Source: Marixanthomonas spongiae
GTDB lineage: Bacteria > Bacteroidota > Bacteroidia > Flavobacteriales > Flavobacteriaceae
NCBI RefSeq assembly: GCF_003095375.1
Contig: NZ_QEHR01000006.1
Coordinates: forward strand, 1-64,000
DNA: 64,000 nucleotides
Direction of reading: 5' to 3'
Position 1 is the first letter of the stretch, and every line of letters starts with the position of its first letter. The position numbers were made by a program, and so were the translations under genes. Below, piece by piece: positions 47,147-56,515 of this stretch. Below the pieces are notes generated by a model. That model was not told where the DNA came from. It did not search any database and worked only from the letters and a program-made list of their open reading frames with translations.

Positions 47147-47560
47147 TTAACTTTTCTTTTCTTCTAATTTTATATCGTTTTTAGCGGGTTTGTCGCTAAC
47201 ATGTAAAATATCCTTTATGGTAATTACTTCTTCCCAAACTTCTTCGGTTTCGGCTTTTGGGTTGGGTTTTACCTCGCCGCTTACAATTACCGGAACCATA
47301 TCGTAAGGGTCCCTTTTTATGCTGGAAACCCTGTTGGCCAGTTCTTGGCTTTTTTCGTCTATGGTAACACCGTAGATAAAGTTGTTTCCTTTTAACACCG
47401 CTGCGTCGTCCGTGTAAATGAACTCCCCTCTATACGTTTTCACGTTTTCGTTGGCTGGGGAAACTGCTGCTTCTTCAGGATTTTTTTCAGTCTCTTTCTT
47501 TGTATTGTTACAGGAAAGAATTGTAGCCGAAAGCGCGAGCAGCAAAAGTATTTTTCTCAT
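47147..47560 (-). CDS. Small lipoprotein of unknown function inside the suf operon
   Basis: 137 residues. Signal ends ATILSCNNTKK (lipobox). The mature part is a beta-rich FIYTDDAAVLKGNNFIYGVTIDEKSQELANRV... with the tail KDILHVSDKPAKNDIKLEEKKS. It may be an OB-fold-like domain; no catalytic residues. Fits between sufB (34 bases) and sufC (2 bases), so it is certainly cotranscribed. No known role in Fe-S biogenesis. Confidence 0.75.
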   Translation of the reverse strand: MRKILLLLALSATILSCNNTKKETEKNPEEAAVSPANENVKTYRGEFIYTDDAAVLKGNNFIYGVTIDEKSQELANRVSSIKRDPYDMVPVIVSGEVKPNPKAETEEVWEEVITIKDILHVSDKPAKNDIKLEEKKS

Positions 47561-49128: not shown

Positions 49129-49458
49129 TTATAGCGAGAAACTTTCGCCACAACCGCAGGTACGGTTAGCATTGGGGTTGTTAAAGACAAACCCTTTGCC
49201 GTTCAATCCACCGCTGTACTCCAGCGTGGTCCCTACCAAATAGAGAAAACTTTTTTTGTCAATTGCTATCTTAACCTGTTCATCTTCAAAAAGCTTGTCG
49301 TTTTCCCCTATGGCATTGTCAAATTTCAGGTCATAAGAAAGGCCGGAGCACCCTCCGCTTTTAACGCCAACCCGAACAAAATCGTTTGCTATATTAAAGC
49401 CTTCTTCAGCCATCAACTGCTCCAGCTTTGATTTTGCGTTTGCACTTACTTTTATCAT
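49129..49458 (-). CDS. A-type Fe-S carrier (SufA/IscA-like)
   Basis: 109 residues with the HesB motif: GVKSGGCSGLSYDLKFDN and the C-terminal cysteines in RTCGCGESFSL. Start at ATG 49458 is preceded by a TATATTTG promoter (49486-49493). First gene of the leftward SUF run. Confidence 0.93.
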   Translation of the reverse strand: MIKVSANAKSKLEQLMAEEGFNIANDFVRVGVKSGGCSGLSYDLKFDNAIGENDKLFEDEQVKIAIDKKSFLYLVGTTLEYSGGLNGKGFVFNNPNANRTCGCGESFSL

Positions 49459-49708: not shown

Positions 49709-50812
49709 CTATTTGTTTTGAAAGTCCGGGTTATTGATGAAGCTTTCGTCCGATAGTGCCAAGAGGAATGCTTTAAGGTCTTGTTTGTCCTGTTCTGAAA
49801 GTTGCACGCCACCTTCGCCCACGGCTTTCATAAGTGGATCGATGGTTTCGGAATAGACCAGACCTTCGCTGTAATGATCGATTACTTCTTCCAGCGTTTC
49901 AAAACGGCCATCGTGCATATAAGGAGCGGTATAGGCCAAGTTTCGAAGCGAAGGGGTTTTAAAAAGCCCAAACTCCCTAGGATCGCCGGTTATGGCGCCA
50001 CGGCCTAAATCGTCAAAGGTTTTGTCCAAGCCATTGTTGTGAAAGTCATTATCGGTCCACAATAAGTTATTGGGCGGTGTGCCGTGGCAATGGAAGCAAT
50101 CGCCCCGTTCTTCGTCTTTATAGACATTGAGTCCGTTCTGTTCGGCTTGGGTAAGCTCGATCTCACCCCGCAAGTATTGATCATATCGCGAATTGCCCGA
50201 AATAAGCGTGCGCACAAACTGTGCAATGGCTTTTGACACCAGGGTGGAATCGATGGTGGACGTGCCAAAGGCTTTCGCAAAAAGTTCGGGATATTCCGGT
50301 GCAGCTTGTAGGCTCGAAACCGCATTGGGCCAAGTGTTGTGCATTTCAACAGGGTCTATAACAGGTTCTAAGGCTTGGTTTTCAAGCGAAATGGCCCGCC
50401 CGTCCCAAAAAAAGGTTTCCTTATGGTTCCACGCCAAGTTAAAAAGCGGCATGGAGTTCCGTCTACCTTCAACGCCATCAATCCCCGGACTGAATTGCCG
50501 TGAATCTGAAAATCCCTCTTCCTGAATGTGGCAACCGGCACAGGCCAAAGTGTTGTTACCCGAAAGAATAGGATCGAAAAATAATTTTTTGCCCAAAGCC
50601 ACTCCTTCTACGGTTTGGGGGTTATCTGCCGGGATGACCGGTGAATCTAATTTTTCCTGAAATAAAACAGGGGTTTGCAATGCCAATGGCGTGGGCTCGT
50701 AGCCCTCTTCTGCTTGTTCAGTTTTATTAGTTTCTTCTTTGGCACAAGAGCTTATTAACAGTGCGCATGCTACTGTTAAAACAAAGGTCGGTATGTTTTT
50801 GAAAACGGTCAA
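49709..50812 (-). CDS. Di-haem cytochrome-c-peroxidase/MauG/MbnH-family lipoprotein
   Basis: 367 residues. Signal ends LLISSCAKEE (lipobox). Two c-type haem sites: CAGCH (residues 91-95) and CFHCH (239-243). The conserved FFWDGRA after haem 1 and PYMHDGRFETLEEVIDHY after haem 2 fit the CCP/MauG superfamily. Members either reduce peroxide or oxidise a protein partner. It is coded 9 bases after an MbnP-like protein, which makes partner oxidation of the MbnH kind more attractive. Third gene of a leftward operon. Confidence 0.9.
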   Translation of the reverse strand: MTVFKNIPTFVLTVACALLISSCAKEETNKTEQAEEGYEPTPLALQTPVLFQEKLDSPVIPADNPQTVEGVALGKKLFFDPILSGNNTLACAGCHIQEEGFSDSRQFSPGIDGVEGRRNSMPLFNLAWNHKETFFWDGRAISLENQALEPVIDPVEMHNTWPNAVSSLQAAPEYPELFAKAFGTSTIDSTLVSKAIAQFVRTLISGNSRYDQYLRGEIELTQAEQNGLNVYKDEERGDCFHCHGTPPNNLLWTDNDFHNNGLDKTFDDLGRGAITGDPREFGLFKTPSLRNLAYTAPYMHDGRFETLEEVIDHYSEGLVYSETIDPLMKAVGEGGVQLSEQDKQDLKAFLLALSDESFINNPDFQNK

Positions 50813-50821
50813 ATGAATTGT

Positions 50822-51601
50822 TTATTCCTCTACAATGGTCGTTTCTCCCAAGCTAAAAACAGTGCGTCCATTTTCCGACATTTTGAGCTGGGCGCCAAAA
50901 TTGCCCATTAAATTGCTGTTCAGTTCGTTCAAATCCCATTCGTTTGGGTTTTTGAACCATTCGGCCACGTCCATTTTAATTTCATAAACAACGCCTTCTT
51001 TAACCGTTACGGTGCCTAAATCTACTTCAAAAGAGGTGTCTTGCAGTTCCAAAGCATCATCGGTTTTGTTGGCTGCCCGTATGGTGTGGTACAAATATGG
51101 GGCGACTGTACCGGTATTGTCGATAAACGTACCTTCCAATTGCATAAAATGATACCCGCCGCCAAGGTCTTCGGGCACGTTCCAGTCGGCACTGGTTAAA
51201 TCGGGGTATGCGCCGTCGATATTGTCTTCTTTTTCAAACCCAAAAGTAAAACTCAAGGTGTAGGTGCCTTCCTGTATTTTTTTGGCGGGTTTGTATTGGG
51301 TGTTGGTTGCTTCCCGGGCGTTAACCAAGTTATAGCCTTTTATAATGGTGCTGTCGCCGTTTTCATCGGTAAACGCGATGTCTGAAATCAAGTACCGTAA
51401 CTTTGAAATAGTCATTGTTTCGCCGTGTGCATTGGTGTATTCGGTGGTTTGATAATCGGCGTTGGTAATTTCATCGCCCTCCCAGTTTTGGGTGAAGTTG
51501 AAGGTAACATTTCGGTTTGGGTTTAAAACCGCTGCTTCATCTACATCTTTACAGGCCACTAAAACGAGTGCCGCAACGACTAACAAAATATGCTTTTTCA
51601 T
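50822..51601 (-). CDS. MbnP-like lipoprotein
   Basis: 259 residues. Signal ends VLVACKDVDE (lipobox). The mature sequence has the MbnP family pattern: VTFNFTQNWEGDEITNADY, then NAHGETMTISKLRYLISDIAFTDENG and a C-terminal beta domain with KMDVAEWFKNPNEWDLNELN. In methanotrophs MbnP carries a kynurenine made from Trp by the MauG-like MbnH and binds copper. The mauG-like gene starts 9 bases downstream, which is the same pairing. Copper binding here is inference. Confidence 0.75.
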   Translation of the reverse strand: MKKHILLVVAALVLVACKDVDEAAVLNPNRNVTFNFTQNWEGDEITNADYQTTEYTNAHGETMTISKLRYLISDIAFTDENGDSTIIKGYNLVNAREATNTQYKPAKKIQEGTYTLSFTFGFEKEDNIDGAYPDLTSADWNVPEDLGGGYHFMQLEGTFIDNTGTVAPYLYHTIRAANKTDDALELQDTSFEVDLGTVTVKEGVVYEIKMDVAEWFKNPNEWDLNELNSNLMGNFGAQLKMSENGRTVFSLGETTIVEE

Positions 51602-51619
51602 ATTAAAAATGATTTAGGG

Positions 51620-53008
51620 TTATTTAAGTTTTATCAATAATATATCTTCCACGCCACGGTTTTGCGGGATGTCTTTGTCATTGCTTTGAGTGCTTCCCAC
51701 AATAACATAGGAGCTTTTTTCTGCTTCAACGGCGCTTTGGGCAAAATCGAATGTTGAACCGCCGATTGTTATTTGAAATTGCATGCTTTGCTTATCGTCA
51801 ATAACCATTGCCAGCGCATCATTGTCTCCTTTATCTCCATTGAAATCACCGTCTGTACTTCTGGTGTTCCCGGTTATTATGAAGTTTCCGTTAGACAGTT
51901 GGGTGATGCCCCTGGCGCTTTCAAATTCACTGCCCCCATAGGATTGTTGTGACAACAGGGTCCCTTCGGCATCGATTTTCACGCCCCAAATGTCTGCTTT
52001 CCCAAAATTACCGCTAACATCTTCATCGTTACTGCGGGTATCGCCAAACATCATAAAGTTTCCGTCAGCAGTTGTTGTAGCGGCATATAAATTTTCTATT
52101 TGGGTGCCACCATAGTTTTTTCCCCATACCAATTCTCCATTTGCTGAAACCTTTACCACCCAAAAGTCGTAGGTGCCAATGTTTTCTGAAATGTCCACAT
52201 CAAAGCTGTCTGACGTCCCAAAAACGAGGTATGACCCGTCAGCGGTTTGTTGAACATCGTAAGCAGTATCGGTAAACGTGCCGCCAAAATAGTTTCTCCA
52301 TTGCAGTTCTCCTGTTGAAGAGAGCTTGATGGCCCAGTAATCACCTCCTGCATGTTGTGGAGACCTACTTGTTTTTCCTCCAGGCCGTTTGGAACCCAGC
52401 CCTCCTTCGCCATTGCTTGCTGAAACATCCAACACGCCTACCGCTATATAACCACCATCTTTTGTTTGTCTGGCTTTATAAGCTTTGTCGCTACCTGGAA
52501 AACCGAAACTTTTTTCCCATTGAAGATCGCCTGAAGCATTAAACTTTACAATCCAAAAGTCGTGAAACCCTTCGTTATTGCTCACATCACCGCCAGCACC
52601 TCTGCTATAACCAGATGCAATATATCCTCCATCGTTTGTTTTTTCTAAGCCAGTGGCAGTATCGTCTTCGGGACCACCATAGGTTTTGCTCCAGATTATT
52701 TCGCCATCGGGTTTTATTTTTAAGAGCCAGAAATCTTCATCGGTCGTGGTTTTATCGGTAATATCGCCATCGGTGCTTTGGGTCGTGCCGAGAACTACGT
52801 AGTTTCCGTCATTGGCCAAGACAACACTTACCGCTTTGTCCAACTCGCTGCCGCCATAGGTTTTTATATAATCTATTTCGCCTTGAAACTCTGGTGTTGT
52901 TTCTATTTCCTCTTCTTCTTCTCTTGGGGAATCTGGGTCTTTACAGGAAACAATACCAACGACTAAAAAAATTATGAGTATTTTGTAGGTTAAGCTATTC
53001 TTTTTCAT
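51620..53008 (-). CDS. Seven-repeat propeller lipoprotein
   Basis: 462 residues. Signal ends VGIVSCKDPDSPREEEEE: lipobox followed by an acidic run, as in surface-exposed flavobacterial lipoproteins. About seven repeats of some 58 residues follow the pattern YGG-(x)n-TxDGGYIxxGxTxS-DGD-...-DFWxxKxxxxGxxxW; the third contains a Gly/Arg-rich insert. This should fold as a seven-bladed beta-propeller. First gene of the operon with MbnP (18 bases) and the di-haem gene. Confidence 0.8.
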   Translation of the reverse strand: MKKNSLTYKILIIFLVVGIVSCKDPDSPREEEEEIETTPEFQGEIDYIKTYGGSELDKAVSVVLANDGNYVVLGTTQSTDGDITDKTTTDEDFWLLKIKPDGEIIWSKTYGGPEDDTATGLEKTNDGGYIASGYSRGAGGDVSNNEGFHDFWIVKFNASGDLQWEKSFGFPGSDKAYKARQTKDGGYIAVGVLDVSASNGEGGLGSKRPGGKTSRSPQHAGGDYWAIKLSSTGELQWRNYFGGTFTDTAYDVQQTADGSYLVFGTSDSFDVDISENIGTYDFWVVKVSANGELVWGKNYGGTQIENLYAATTTADGNFMMFGDTRSNDEDVSGNFGKADIWGVKIDAEGTLLSQQSYGGSEFESARGITQLSNGNFIITGNTRSTDGDFNGDKGDNDALAMVIDDKQSMQFQITIGGSTFDFAQSAVEAEKSSYVIVGSTQSNDKDIPQNRGVEDILLIKLK

Positions 53009-53335: not shown

Positions 53336-55252
53336 CTATTTTTTCACAATTTTCTTAGTTGCCCTTTTATTAATTGTTATAAAATACATTCCTTTTGAAA
53401 AGCTCGAGATATTTATTGACTTTGCCATAGCGTTGATGTTTTTTTCAGTGTACACCTTTTTTCCCAATATGTCATAAACCTCAATAAGTTCTATTGTGGT
53501 GTTTTCTGAAGTGACGGTAACTTTATCCGAAGCCGGTACTGGGAATATTTTAATACTATTTTCAAAAGAAATGTCGTTAATGGCTAATTCTTCCATTACC
53601 GTTAATTGAAAGGAACAGTTTCCTGTGTTTCCAGAAGCGTCTTCAGCTTCAAAACTTATGGTGTAAGTTCCTTCGGTAAGCTGTGTTCCTGGAGCTGGCG
53701 TTTGTGTAACGGTGGGGGTTTGGGTACAGTTATCTATTGTAAGCACCAATCCTTCTGCCTCATAATCAGGTAATGTATAAAAATTGGCTCCAGAATCATA
53801 TTCGACAGTGGTGTCTGCAGTACAGGTTATTGCTGGAGCTGTGTTATCTTCTATCGTGATTATTGCTGTGCAGGTATCGGTATTCCCGGAGGGGTCTGTT
53901 ACGGTTAAGGTAACAGTGTTCTCTCCTATGTGGGTGCAGTTAAACTCATTTTGGCTCAACGATAAAGTGAAAAAACCACTATTGTCGCTAGACCCTCCGT
54001 CCACTAATGCAGGATCTACTACTGTTGTTTCATCTGGGTTTAATGAAACGGTAATGTTCTGGCAAACTGCCACAGGATCTTCATTATCTGCGATTGATGA
54101 TTTCACCAAAAAGAAACCTTCGCTAATATCGCTCATAACAATATTTCCACTTGCAAAATAAGGGTACACATTCCATACACTTGAGGTGCTGGCGTTGTCG
54201 TTACTGGGGTATGTGTCAAAAAAAGCTTCTTCCACAAAATTTTCCCCTGCTATATCGCTTATGTCAATAATGCGTAAACCAGCTCTATAATTGGCTAAGT
54301 AAAATTTTTGCCCCAACACATATCCATTATGGTCTGTTGCCGAAGTAGGTCCTGAATATTCAAAGTGCAATTGTGGATTATCAAGGTCGTTTAAATCGAA
54401 TATTAAGGTACGTGTGTTGAAGCCGTAATCGATTTCGTCGATTTCGTCCCCTGCTATAAAATAGCGTTCGTCTTCTGTAAACCAACCTTGATGCGTATAA
54501 GAAACGTTGGAATAACTTATGGTCGAAATACTCTGTGGGTTTGCTTTATCGGTTATATCTACAATAACAATTTCGTTTTCATTACTGCCAACATATATTT
54601 CTCTTCCTGTATAATCTGTATCAGGGCCATTATAAATAACTACTTGTGCATCGTGGCTATAATAATCGTTGGAATATCCACCTTCCCCAACAGGATTTAA
54701 AGGGTCTTGAATGTTTACAAAATGAGGGCCGCCGTTAAATGTGCCTGTCCCTACGCCATAAGCGTATCCAGAGTCTTCATTAATAACTAAATTGTGAGCG
54801 TTTCCAAAACCATCGTAATGGGCATCTTCGGTGAAAGTTACTGGGGGAGAAGTTACGTTTCTTAAACGGGTTAAGTCAAAAACCTGCATGCCGTGCCCCG
54901 AAGCTTCACTTACTACAAAAGCATAGTTGTTATATACTTTAATATCGCGCCAGCTACTTGACGAAGTATGTGTTGGCAATTTCCCCAAATATATAGGGTT
55001 TATAGGGTCCGAAATATCAATAAAAGCAGTACCATTGTCCAGTCCCATAAGTGCGTATTCGGTGCCGTCTTGTGGATCTGTCCAGCCCCAGGAATCATTC
55101 CCGCTTCCTGCGTTCATTTCACTTAATGAAATATGGGATTGTAGGTCAATCCCGTCGCAAGGATAGGGGCCAGCCATGCCATTATTACAAGGGGTCTGTG
55201 CATGTAATTGTGTACATGCCAAAATTAAAAGCGTAAGTAGAATATTCTTCAT
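53336..55252 (-). CDS. Choice-of-anchor B / LVIVD-repeat protein with HYR-like domains and T9SS sorting domain
   Basis: 638 residues. Signal ends CTQLHAQ. A propeller of LVIVD-type repeats spans about residues 35-385 (AFIDISDPINPIYLGKL, IYVGSNENEIVIVDITDKANPQSI). Two HYR/Ig-like repeats follow (DPSGNTDTCTAIITIEDNTAP, EDASGNTGNCSFQLTV). The last 75 residues (KIFPVPASDKVTV... SKGMYFITINK) form a type A T9SS sorting domain, so the protein is exported through T9SS. Function on the cell surface or outside is unknown. Monocistronic. Confidence 0.87.
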   Translation of the reverse strand: MKNILLTLLILACTQLHAQTPCNNGMAGPYPCDGIDLQSHISLSEMNAGSGNDSWGWTDPQDGTEYALMGLDNGTAFIDISDPINPIYLGKLPTHTSSSSWRDIKVYNNYAFVVSEASGHGMQVFDLTRLRNVTSPPVTFTEDAHYDGFGNAHNLVINEDSGYAYGVGTGTFNGGPHFVNIQDPLNPVGEGGYSNDYYSHDAQVVIYNGPDTDYTGREIYVGSNENEIVIVDITDKANPQSISTISYSNVSYTHQGWFTEDERYFIAGDEIDEIDYGFNTRTLIFDLNDLDNPQLHFEYSGPTSATDHNGYVLGQKFYLANYRAGLRIIDISDIAGENFVEEAFFDTYPSNDNASTSSVWNVYPYFASGNIVMSDISEGFFLVKSSIADNEDPVAVCQNITVSLNPDETTVVDPALVDGGSSDNSGFFTLSLSQNEFNCTHIGENTVTLTVTDPSGNTDTCTAIITIEDNTAPAITCTADTTVEYDSGANFYTLPDYEAEGLVLTIDNCTQTPTVTQTPAPGTQLTEGTYTISFEAEDASGNTGNCSFQLTVMEELAINDISFENSIKIFPVPASDKVTVTSENTTIELIEVYDILGKKVYTEKNINAMAKSINISSFSKGMYFITINKRATKKIVKK

Positions 55253-55436: not shown

Positions 55437-55444
55437 TATTTTTG
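55437..55444 (+). promoter_or_regulatory. Promoter -7 element for thiL
   Basis: TATTTTTG, 18 bases before ATG 55463; overlaps the longer frame's TTG start, arguing for the later start. Confidence 0.45.
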
Positions 55445-55462
55445 CACATTAAAGCACAACTT

Positions 55463-56515
55463 ATGTTCGAAAACAAAGACACTTCCAGAACCAGTATTTC
55501 ACAATTGGGCGAATTTGGCCTTATAGACCACCTTACCAAAAATTTCAAAATAAAACATGAAACCACGGTTAAAGGCATTGGCGACGATGCGGCGGTCATT
55601 GCTTCAGAAAAAGACCAGCAATTGGTGGTAACGACCGATATGTTGGTAGAAGGCGTGCATTTCGACTTAAGCTACATGCCCTTAAAACATTTGGGCTATA
55701 AAGCCGTGGTGGTAAACCTTTCCGATGTGTATGCCATGAACGCCAAAGCCTCGCAAATAACGGTGTCGATAGCCGTTTCCAACCGGTTCCCGGTGGAAGC
55801 CTTAGAAGAGTTGTATGCCGGAATCGAAACTGCGGCAAGCATCTACAACATTGATGTGGTGGGCGGCGATACCACTTCCTCTACAACAGGATTGGTAATC
55901 AGTATTACGGCTTTGGGGCAAGCTAAAAAAGATAATATAGTGTACCGTTCTGGTGCCAAAGCCAACGATTTGCTGGTGTTAACGGGCGATGTGGGCGCTG
56001 CCTACCTTGGGCTTCAGGTCTTGGAACGCGAAAAGCAAGTGTTTAAGGTCAATCCAAAATCGCAACCCGATCTTGATAAATATACCTACATTATTGAACG
56101 GCAATTAAAACCCGAAGCCCGTCAAGGCATTGCGGCCTTGTTGAACGAGCTGGAAGTGCAACCCACCTCCATGATCGATGTTAGCGACGGACTTTCTTCT
56201 GAAATAATCCACATCTGCAAAAACTCGAAAGTAGGCTGTAATCTATATGAAGACAAAATCCCGCTGGACCCGCAGGTTATTGCCACCTGTGAAGAATTTG
56301 AACTGGACAGCACCACCGTTGCGTTAAGTGGCGGGGAAGATTATGAACTGCTGTTTACCGTTTCAACCGAAGATTTTCCCAAAATAAAGGGCAATCCGCA
56401 TTTAACGGTCATTGGGCACATGACGCAAGAAAGTGAAGGCATGCACTTGATAACCCGCGCCAATACCAAAATACCTTTGGTGGCCCGGGGCTGGAACGCG
56501 ATGAAGGAAGACTAA
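55463..56515 (+). CDS. thiL: Thiamine-monophosphate kinase
   Basis: 350 residues from ATG 55463. AIR-synthase-like fold. ATP/Mg sites: GIGDDAAVI, TTDMLVEGVHFDL, VVGGDTTSSTTGLVISITALG; C-terminal DVSDGLSSEI and LSGGEDYELLFTVS. Makes thiamine diphosphate. Convergent with a small zinc-ribbon-like gene (4-base overlap at 56512-56515). Confidence 0.95.
   Translation: MFENKDTSRTSISQLGEFGLIDHLTKNFKIKHETTVKGIGDDAAVIASEKDQQLVVTTDMLVEGVHFDLSYMPLKHLGYKAVVVNLSDVYAMNAKASQITVSIAVSNRFPVEALEELYAGIETAASIYNIDVVGGDTTSSTTGLVISITALGQAKKDNIVYRSGAKANDLLVLTGDVGAAYLGLQVLEREKQVFKVNPKSQPDLDKYTYIIERQLKPEARQGIAALLNELEVQPTSMIDVSDGLSSEIIHICKNSKVGCNLYEDKIPLDPQVIATCEEFELDSTTVALSGGEDYELLFTVSTEDFPKIKGNPHLTVIGHMTQESEGMHLITRANTKIPLVARGWNAMKED

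Follow-up and report, generated by a model that had tools for sequence, protein, structure and literature searches.

A four-gene operon of Flavobacteriaceae joining two propeller proteins to a divergent MbnP/MbnH-like pair, and an either/or pattern of propeller histidines

Genes of the locus and the conserved gene set

The window analysed here is a stretch of 64,000 nucleotides from Marixanthomonas spongiae, a member of the Flavobacteriaceae (assembly GCF_003095375.1, contig NZ_QEHR01000006.1, positions 1 to 64,000). It carries a four-gene unit on the minus strand, whose genes are called B, R, P and H in this text. B (53336..55252), the first gene of the unit, encodes a choice-of-anchor B protein, an LVIVD-type propeller of 638 amino acids (aa) with a type A tail of the type IX secretion system (T9SS). 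R (51620..53008) encodes a seven-bladed propeller lipoprotein of 462 aa, P (50822..51601) a divergent MbnP-like lipoprotein of 259 aa, and H (49709..50812) a di-haem MbnH/MauG-like enzyme of 367 aa, also a lipoprotein, with TTG listed as its start codon. The central observation is that a set of four histidines was complete in R only at loci where P and H were absent.

The initial annotation had described an operon of three tightly spaced genes. The open reading frames (ORFs) of R, P and H were indeed transcribed in this order, with gaps of 18 bases between R and P and of 9 bases between P and H. The genes, order and spacing were thus given correctly, but B was overlooked. It is the next gene upstream of R on the same strand, 327 bases away in the window. 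To judge from their sequences, the flanks presumably hold SUF genes (below position 49458) on one side and, on the other, a thiL-like gene on the plus strand (55442-56515).

The conservation of the gene set was surveyed in 199 Flavobacteriaceae genomes. The Pfam MbnP family PF20243, used to search for P, was found in 99 of them. The first 60 loci were picked from these places and belong mostly to the low-scoring kind, so that the shares of the kinds among them are not frequencies. Together with the window they gave 47 loci with R, P and H, all 47 of which also have B, and 14 loci with P and H only. SUF genes lie downstream in 47/47 of the four-gene loci and a thiL-like gene lies upstream in 40/47, whereas the 14 two-gene loci have other neighbours. 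TIGR04312, the family of B, scored above its cut-off in 106 of the 199 genomes. From the B-positive genomes without PF20243, 31 loci (L125-L155) were taken, which are a part of all B-positive genomes. At 28 of them R follows B and both P and H are missing, mostly between the same flanks; the other three (L134, L137, and L150) have B without R and stand outside the R counts. Twenty further loci completed the final set of 99 loci with R, of which 67 have P and H, 31 have neither, and one (L174) has P at a contig end. The contig of L174 stops before H; this locus is counted among the 68 loci with P, and its P is too short for the alignment of the 67 others. Five R-like or B loci from outside the Flavobacteriaceae (L160-L164) were left out of every count. 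In addition, 80 named loci were found through P, which overlap with other genomes of the survey; the named relatives include loci of Ulvibacter, Altibacter, Lacinutrix, Flavivirga, Algibacter, Tenacibaculum, and Xanthomarina.

Over the 67 complete loci, the median intergenic distances are 10 bases (B-R), 5 bases (R-P), and 6 bases (P-H). In a sample of 296 genomes from the phylum, matches to R above 500 bits occurred in six genomes, all of them Flavobacteriaceae, and the next match scored 352.8 bits. B and P together outside the Flavobacteriaceae were also considered in this sample, and the two were not adjacent among the matches listed. Since B-R occurs without P-H in 31 of the 99 R loci, the propellers are the core of the operon and P-H is its optional part. 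A unit of R, P and H alone was dropped because B belongs to the conserved set, and so was P-H as the operon core. The conserved unit in Flavobacteriaceae is B, R, P and H, in most cases flanked by thiL and the SUF operon, and the propeller named by the initial annotation as a partner of the MbnP/MbnH-like pair is conserved in the operon across the surveyed loci.

B of the window matched TIGR04312 with 574 bits (cut-off 100), and its tail matched the T9SS model TIGR04183 with 43.8 bits (cut-off 23). B is often duplicated in tandem upstream of R, in up to four copies (four each at L037, L055, and L057), and at several loci a lipoprotein-type B stands beside a T9SS-type B. R matched no Pfam family, and its weak matches to delta-60/SBBP repeats were below the cut-off. 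A model of R built from 59 sequences had a mean predicted local distance difference test (pLDDT) score of 87.9. Its strands, when grouped by hand, form seven blades of four strands each, with the first strand closing the propeller, which agrees with the seven repeats noticed earlier. The propeller domain of CylK is the nearest solved relative of R both by fold (E 1.8e-24) and by sequence. However, CylK is a larger, alkylating enzyme, and no reason was found to expect alkylation by R. The acidic stretch of R, CKDPDSPREEEEE, is N-terminal and comes after the lipobox Cys. Two or more acidic residues within six positions after this Cys were counted in 62/90 R, 53/66 P, and 40/59 H, by a crude lipobox rule that picks the wrong Cys in some proteins, the H of the window included. 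As described in the available text of PMC5080379, the export signal of Bacteroidota surface lipoproteins is K-(D/E)2 or Q-A-(D/E)2 after the Cys, and the acidic stretches seen here would fit such a signal.

The MbnP-like protein and its di-haem partner

The MbnP-like and MauG-like identities first proposed for P and H were checked against family models. P of the window matched PF20243 with 102 bits (cut-off 27) and gave no match to TIGR04052 at E 0.01; two P of the ordinary flavobacterial kind scored 55.1 and 47.9 bits against the latter model (cut-off 140). Sequence searches with the single P of the window or with a profile of its type found no solved MbnP. A profile of ordinary P found 7l6g, the MbnP of Methylosinus trichosporium, marginally (E 0.035), and paired GMAWNW and HVGS of 7l6g with the ordinary-P motifs. 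Homology was settled by fold. The model of P (pLDDT 91.3, built from 71 aligned sequences) was compared with solved structures. In Foldseek the six best rows are chains of 7l6g (E 9.6e-07 to 9.1e-06) and the next row stands at 0.041. VIA-align gave Z 16.4 for 7l6g, with 217 aligned residues and a root-mean-square deviation of 3.4, and Z 5.1 for the next entry. Judged by its predicted fold, P is an MbnP homologue.

For the comparison of residues, 67 four-gene P and 14 two-gene P were aligned. The window-type group was picked by His151 and comprises 61 four-gene P including that of the window. The motif MxWxW is kept in 14/14 two-gene P and in six four-gene P. At this place the P of the window reads A-D-W-N-V; its first Trp is kept as Trp140 (51182..51184), Val142 stands at the second Trp, and the Met is gone. 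The Trp sought by the initial annotation is thus conserved for the most part, though not strictly. The first Trp is present in 54/61 window-type P and is Phe in the remaining seven, the second is Trp in 11/61 and Val in 50/61, and the Met is kept in 0/61. Manesis et al. reportedly found in 2021 that the first Trp of WxW becomes kynurenine, with a Cu(I) site that has His and Met. As the canonical MxWxW is not kept, kynurenine at the place of the first Trp cannot be assumed for the whole group. The change to Phe140 takes three steps on the P tree, one of them forced by supported branches. H was examined in four of the seven Phe140 loci, and in these the haem motifs, Tyr314, Trp136, Gln146, and Glu156 are all kept.

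Other residues of P are more constant. His172 (51086..51088) is invariant in both kinds, in 67/67 four-gene P and 14/14 two-gene P. His151 (51149..51151) is present in 61/61 window-type P, for which it was the selection criterion, and is Lys, Ile or Arg in 14/14 two-gene P. Besides His151, the novelties of window-type P are Trp222 (61/61), Met232 (61/61), Trp215 (56/61), and Met153 (52/61).

H of the window matched CCP_MauG with 196.8 bits (cut-off 25.6). Its best NCBIfam model is that of MbnH, TIGR04039, with 255 bits, below the cut-off of 362.85; another window-type H (240.6 bits) and two ordinary flavobacterial H (229.6 and 226.3 bits) were below it as well. Among solved chains 6e1c matched best (E 8.6e-59; E 4.9e-79 with the profile); its record is titled 'Di-heme enzyme', and we take it to be MbnH. 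The haem motifs, read from the sequence as CAGCH at residues 91-95 (50528..50542) for haem 1 and CFHCH at residues 239-243 (50084..50098) for haem 2, are kept in 47/47 four-gene H. Tyr314 (49871..49873) stands where bacterial peroxidases have their axial Met; it aligns with Tyr of 6e1c and with Met of the peroxidase 2c1u, and is Tyr in 47/47 four-gene H and 11/14 two-gene H. In MauG this Tyr ligates haem. The Tyr in place of the peroxidase Met argues for chemistry of the MauG/MbnH type and not for that of a plain peroxidase. With MbnH models as its nearest relatives, H appears not to be an ordinary cytochrome-c peroxidase, so that on both points the di-haem enzyme behaves as first proposed. 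H stands beside P in 67/68 four-gene loci with P, the other being cut by the contig end, and in 14/14 two-gene loci.

Some further genes were observed around the two-gene P-H loci. A small exported protein of 121 aa with a CNGKCH motif and no Pfam match lies upstream of ordinary P-H in 11/14 of them (L072:11264-11629). As a guess, it might play a part like that of CruR, the copper-responsive leader described in the available text of PMC9426467. A 331-aa family without a Pfam or NCBIfam match follows ordinary H in 8/14 (L088:8778-9773), and in three (L080:8665-10008, L081, and L082) another kind of P-H is followed by a T9SS-tailed protein that has a YHYH domain. At L087:7782-8838, the H beside an ordinary P appears split into two overlapping ORFs of 97 and 284 aa, by a frameshift or a sequencing error.

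Propeller histidines and the presence of P and H

His149, His173, His175, and His219 are all present in R at 31/31 loci without P-H and at 0/68 loci with P. His219 is invariant in both groups. At thresholds of 90/10 percent, five of the 462 columns of R separate the groups, namely His173 and His175 in the loci without P-H and Asp323, Arg325, and Ala338 in those with P. R without P-H has His-Asp-His at 173-175 and is relaxed at Asp323, Arg325, and Ala338, and the reverse holds wherever P-H of either MbnP kind is present. The window follows this rule, with Ser-Asp-Lys at 173-175 (52484..52492) and Arg325 (52034..52036). Arg325 is found at 68/68 loci with P and is mostly replaced by Phe (22/31) without P-H. 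When the named loci were included, the R histidine pair occurred in 0/147 loci with P and H, the sets being overlapping.

The histidine pattern follows P-H at this site. At six four-gene loci an ordinary MxWxW P and its own kind of H occupy the same position, and R lacks the histidine pair. In three genomes (L165-L167) a high-scoring MbnP gene lies elsewhere with none at this site, and R still has the pair. By the secondary structure of the model, R positions 149, 173-175, 219, and 325 fall within or beside loops that join one blade to the next or the second strand to the third. Such loops share one face of a propeller, so these positions would lie on one face of R. In B, six columns differ with P-H at thresholds of 75/45 percent, none of them with His, Trp, Cys or Met, and B has many conserved His and Trp.

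Trees were used to follow the inheritance of the two states. The flank tree was made from SufB and SufC of 90 of the 99 loci, nine being omitted for lack of SufB or SufC. On this tree the P-H state needs seven changes, five of which are forced by supported branches, and the R histidines run opposite to P-H in 5/5 independent pairs. On the B tree seven changes are needed, four of them forced. The R tree, calculated with the ten trait columns removed, is unrooted and needs one change, with a support of 93. No mixed state of R histidines and P-H was found in the 99 loci. The one change on R against seven each on B and on the flanks indicates that R and P-H travelled together, and B and the SUF genes less so. 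Therefore, we conclude that the type of R and the P-H pair are inherited jointly as one unit.

An NlpE-like gene, clade-linked like the P-H state, served as a control trait. In the window a lipoprotein ORF of 137 aa lies between the sufB- and sufC-like genes (47147-47560, minus strand) and is weakly NlpE_C-like (20.8 bits, cut-off 22). The NlpE-like gene is present at 55/62 loci with P-H and at 4/28 without. Over the five independent pairs, however, it changed the same way as P-H in 1.4, the opposite way in 0.7, and showed no difference in 2.9 (averages). It was dropped as a copper-linked fifth member because it fails to follow P-H in independent pairs.

Possible function of the operon

That the histidine site of R functionally replaces P-H is the best reading of this pattern, though not a proof. 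In the mechanism that we favour, tentatively and with a little less than even confidence, one surface complex would use alternative metal modules, either a four-His R or P-H. B and R would be its core at the cell surface, B being exported by type IX secretion or lipid-anchored and R being a lipoprotein with an acidic export-type signal. The B-R complex would need a metal site, most likely of copper. In one lineage R would supply this site by His149, His173, His175, and His219. In the other, which includes the window, R is without this set and the operon adds P and H. With peroxide, H would oxidise one tryptophan of P; the likeliest target is Trp140, which would become kynurenine, and the alternative is Trp222. 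The oxidised P may then hold copper by His172, His151 and Met153 or Met232, and would dock on R. Copper is the likeliest metal because MbnP binds copper, as does the analogous CorA. With somewhat greater reserve, the four-His site of R and P-H may be regarded as interchangeable parts of one surface complex, which would make the exchange a natural swap of a kynurenine-type copper site for plain histidines.

Several points weigh against this mechanism. No copper gene was found beside the four genes. The B-R gap of the window is the largest among the 67 complete loci, and His149 of R is also present in 15/68 loci with P. In window-type P the motif Met is lost throughout and Trp140 gives way to Phe in seven proteins while H stays. 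A mutant without a CorB-like gene grew faster, according to the available text of PMC3912023, which speaks against a need for H in such pairs. A sign test on the five independent pairs gave p 0.0625. Lastly, the R tree shows a single switch, and one event followed by joint transfer would yield the same table.

The last point leads to a second explanation, which appears rather unlikely. P-H could be an independent copper-capture pair, with kynurenine in P, whose place next to B-R is incidental; the difference in R would then be ordinary lineage divergence, and the joint movement would be due to neighbourhood. The one change on the R tree agrees with it, constant flanks together with vertical inheritance would explain the gene order, and the 14 two-gene loci demonstrate that ordinary P-H lives elsewhere without B or R. 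However, the clean differences in R are few (five of 462 columns) and consist of a gained His pair and fixed Asp, Arg, and Ala, which is not spread divergence. In addition, the flank tree requires at least five changes of state, and none of the 99 loci shows a mixed state.

It is improbable that H is a plain peroxide-removing peroxidase with P as an electron or metal partner that has no kynurenine. H is homologous to cytochrome-c peroxidases, and Trp140 is dispensable in 7/61 P with H kept. On the other hand, Tyr314 replaces the peroxidase Met in every four-gene H aligned, and an ordinary Trp-bearing P-H pair fills the same operon place in six loci. Slightly less probable still is that H matures a propeller instead of P, with B (or R) as a metal enzyme with a tryptophan-derived cofactor like methanethiol oxidase: B and R are both propellers, B is rich in conserved His and Trp, and for the copper methanethiol oxidase MtoX, from an mtoX-SCO1-mauG operon, the available text of PMC5739008 proposes four conserved His as copper ligands, but H accompanies P in every complete locus with P, B has no SBP56 match in Pfam, and none of the P-H-dependent columns of B holds His, Trp, Cys or Met, so that B is the same without H and an action of H on B is not favoured.

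The favoured mechanism, in which R or P-H provides the metal site, can be compared with known systems. The operon resembles MbnP/MbnH of Methylosinus trichosporium (7l6g and 6e1c) in the adjacent genes, the fold of P, and the Tyr column of H, and P keeps His172 and mostly the first Trp. It differs in the degenerate MxWxW, the partners B and R, the lipoprotein nature of its members, and the T9SS organism. Among CorA/CorB and MopE of methanotrophs, CorA is a surface copper protein that is repressed by copper and whose gene is transcribed together with that of CorB, a di-haem peroxidase-like protein; the site of CorA consists of two His, a water, and kynurenine, as given in the available text of PMC3912023. 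Likened by this description, P would form the same set of two His and kynurenine from His151, His172, and Trp140. The mtoX-SCO1-mauG operon is alike in pairing a MauG-like gene with a metal protein, and the four His of MtoX are comparable to those of the four-His R. Here, however, no SCO1 gene was seen, R matches another propeller family, and the four-His R occurs where H is absent.

To our knowledge, the roles of MbnP/MbnH outside copper operons are still open. According to the available text of PMC9426467, operons headed by CruR and linked to copper homeostasis contain MbnPH-like genes as well. It has been known since 2013 that MbnP/MbnH pairs extend well outside the methanobactin producers; their role was unclear at that time, and they were called 'mysterious partners' (PMC3621798, available text). 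The initial interpretation is supported in part: the propeller partner is conserved, the canonical motif of P is not, and pairs outside methanobactin producers had already been described. In the open-licence literature, a scope outside which lie the main MbnP/MbnH papers, which may mention Bacteroidota neighbourhoods, no earlier description was found of the operon of four genes, of the altered P site or of the exchange with R histidines. A functional study of choice-of-anchor B or R propellers was likewise not found in the open-licence literature searched.

In many marine flavobacteria, surface propellers share an operon with a divergent pair of a copper protein and a haem enzyme. Closely related operons with and without P-H occur at one chromosomal site, and specific residues of R, a neighbouring protein, track the presence of P-H. 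R is thereby a candidate partner for MbnP/MbnH, and the role of the pair can be tested with a few purified proteins. For the choice-of-anchor B and R propellers, the pattern is a first pointer to their function. If the proposed mechanism is true, MbnP/MbnH would serve here as a plug-in cofactor for a different protein, a use that would be new for the pair.

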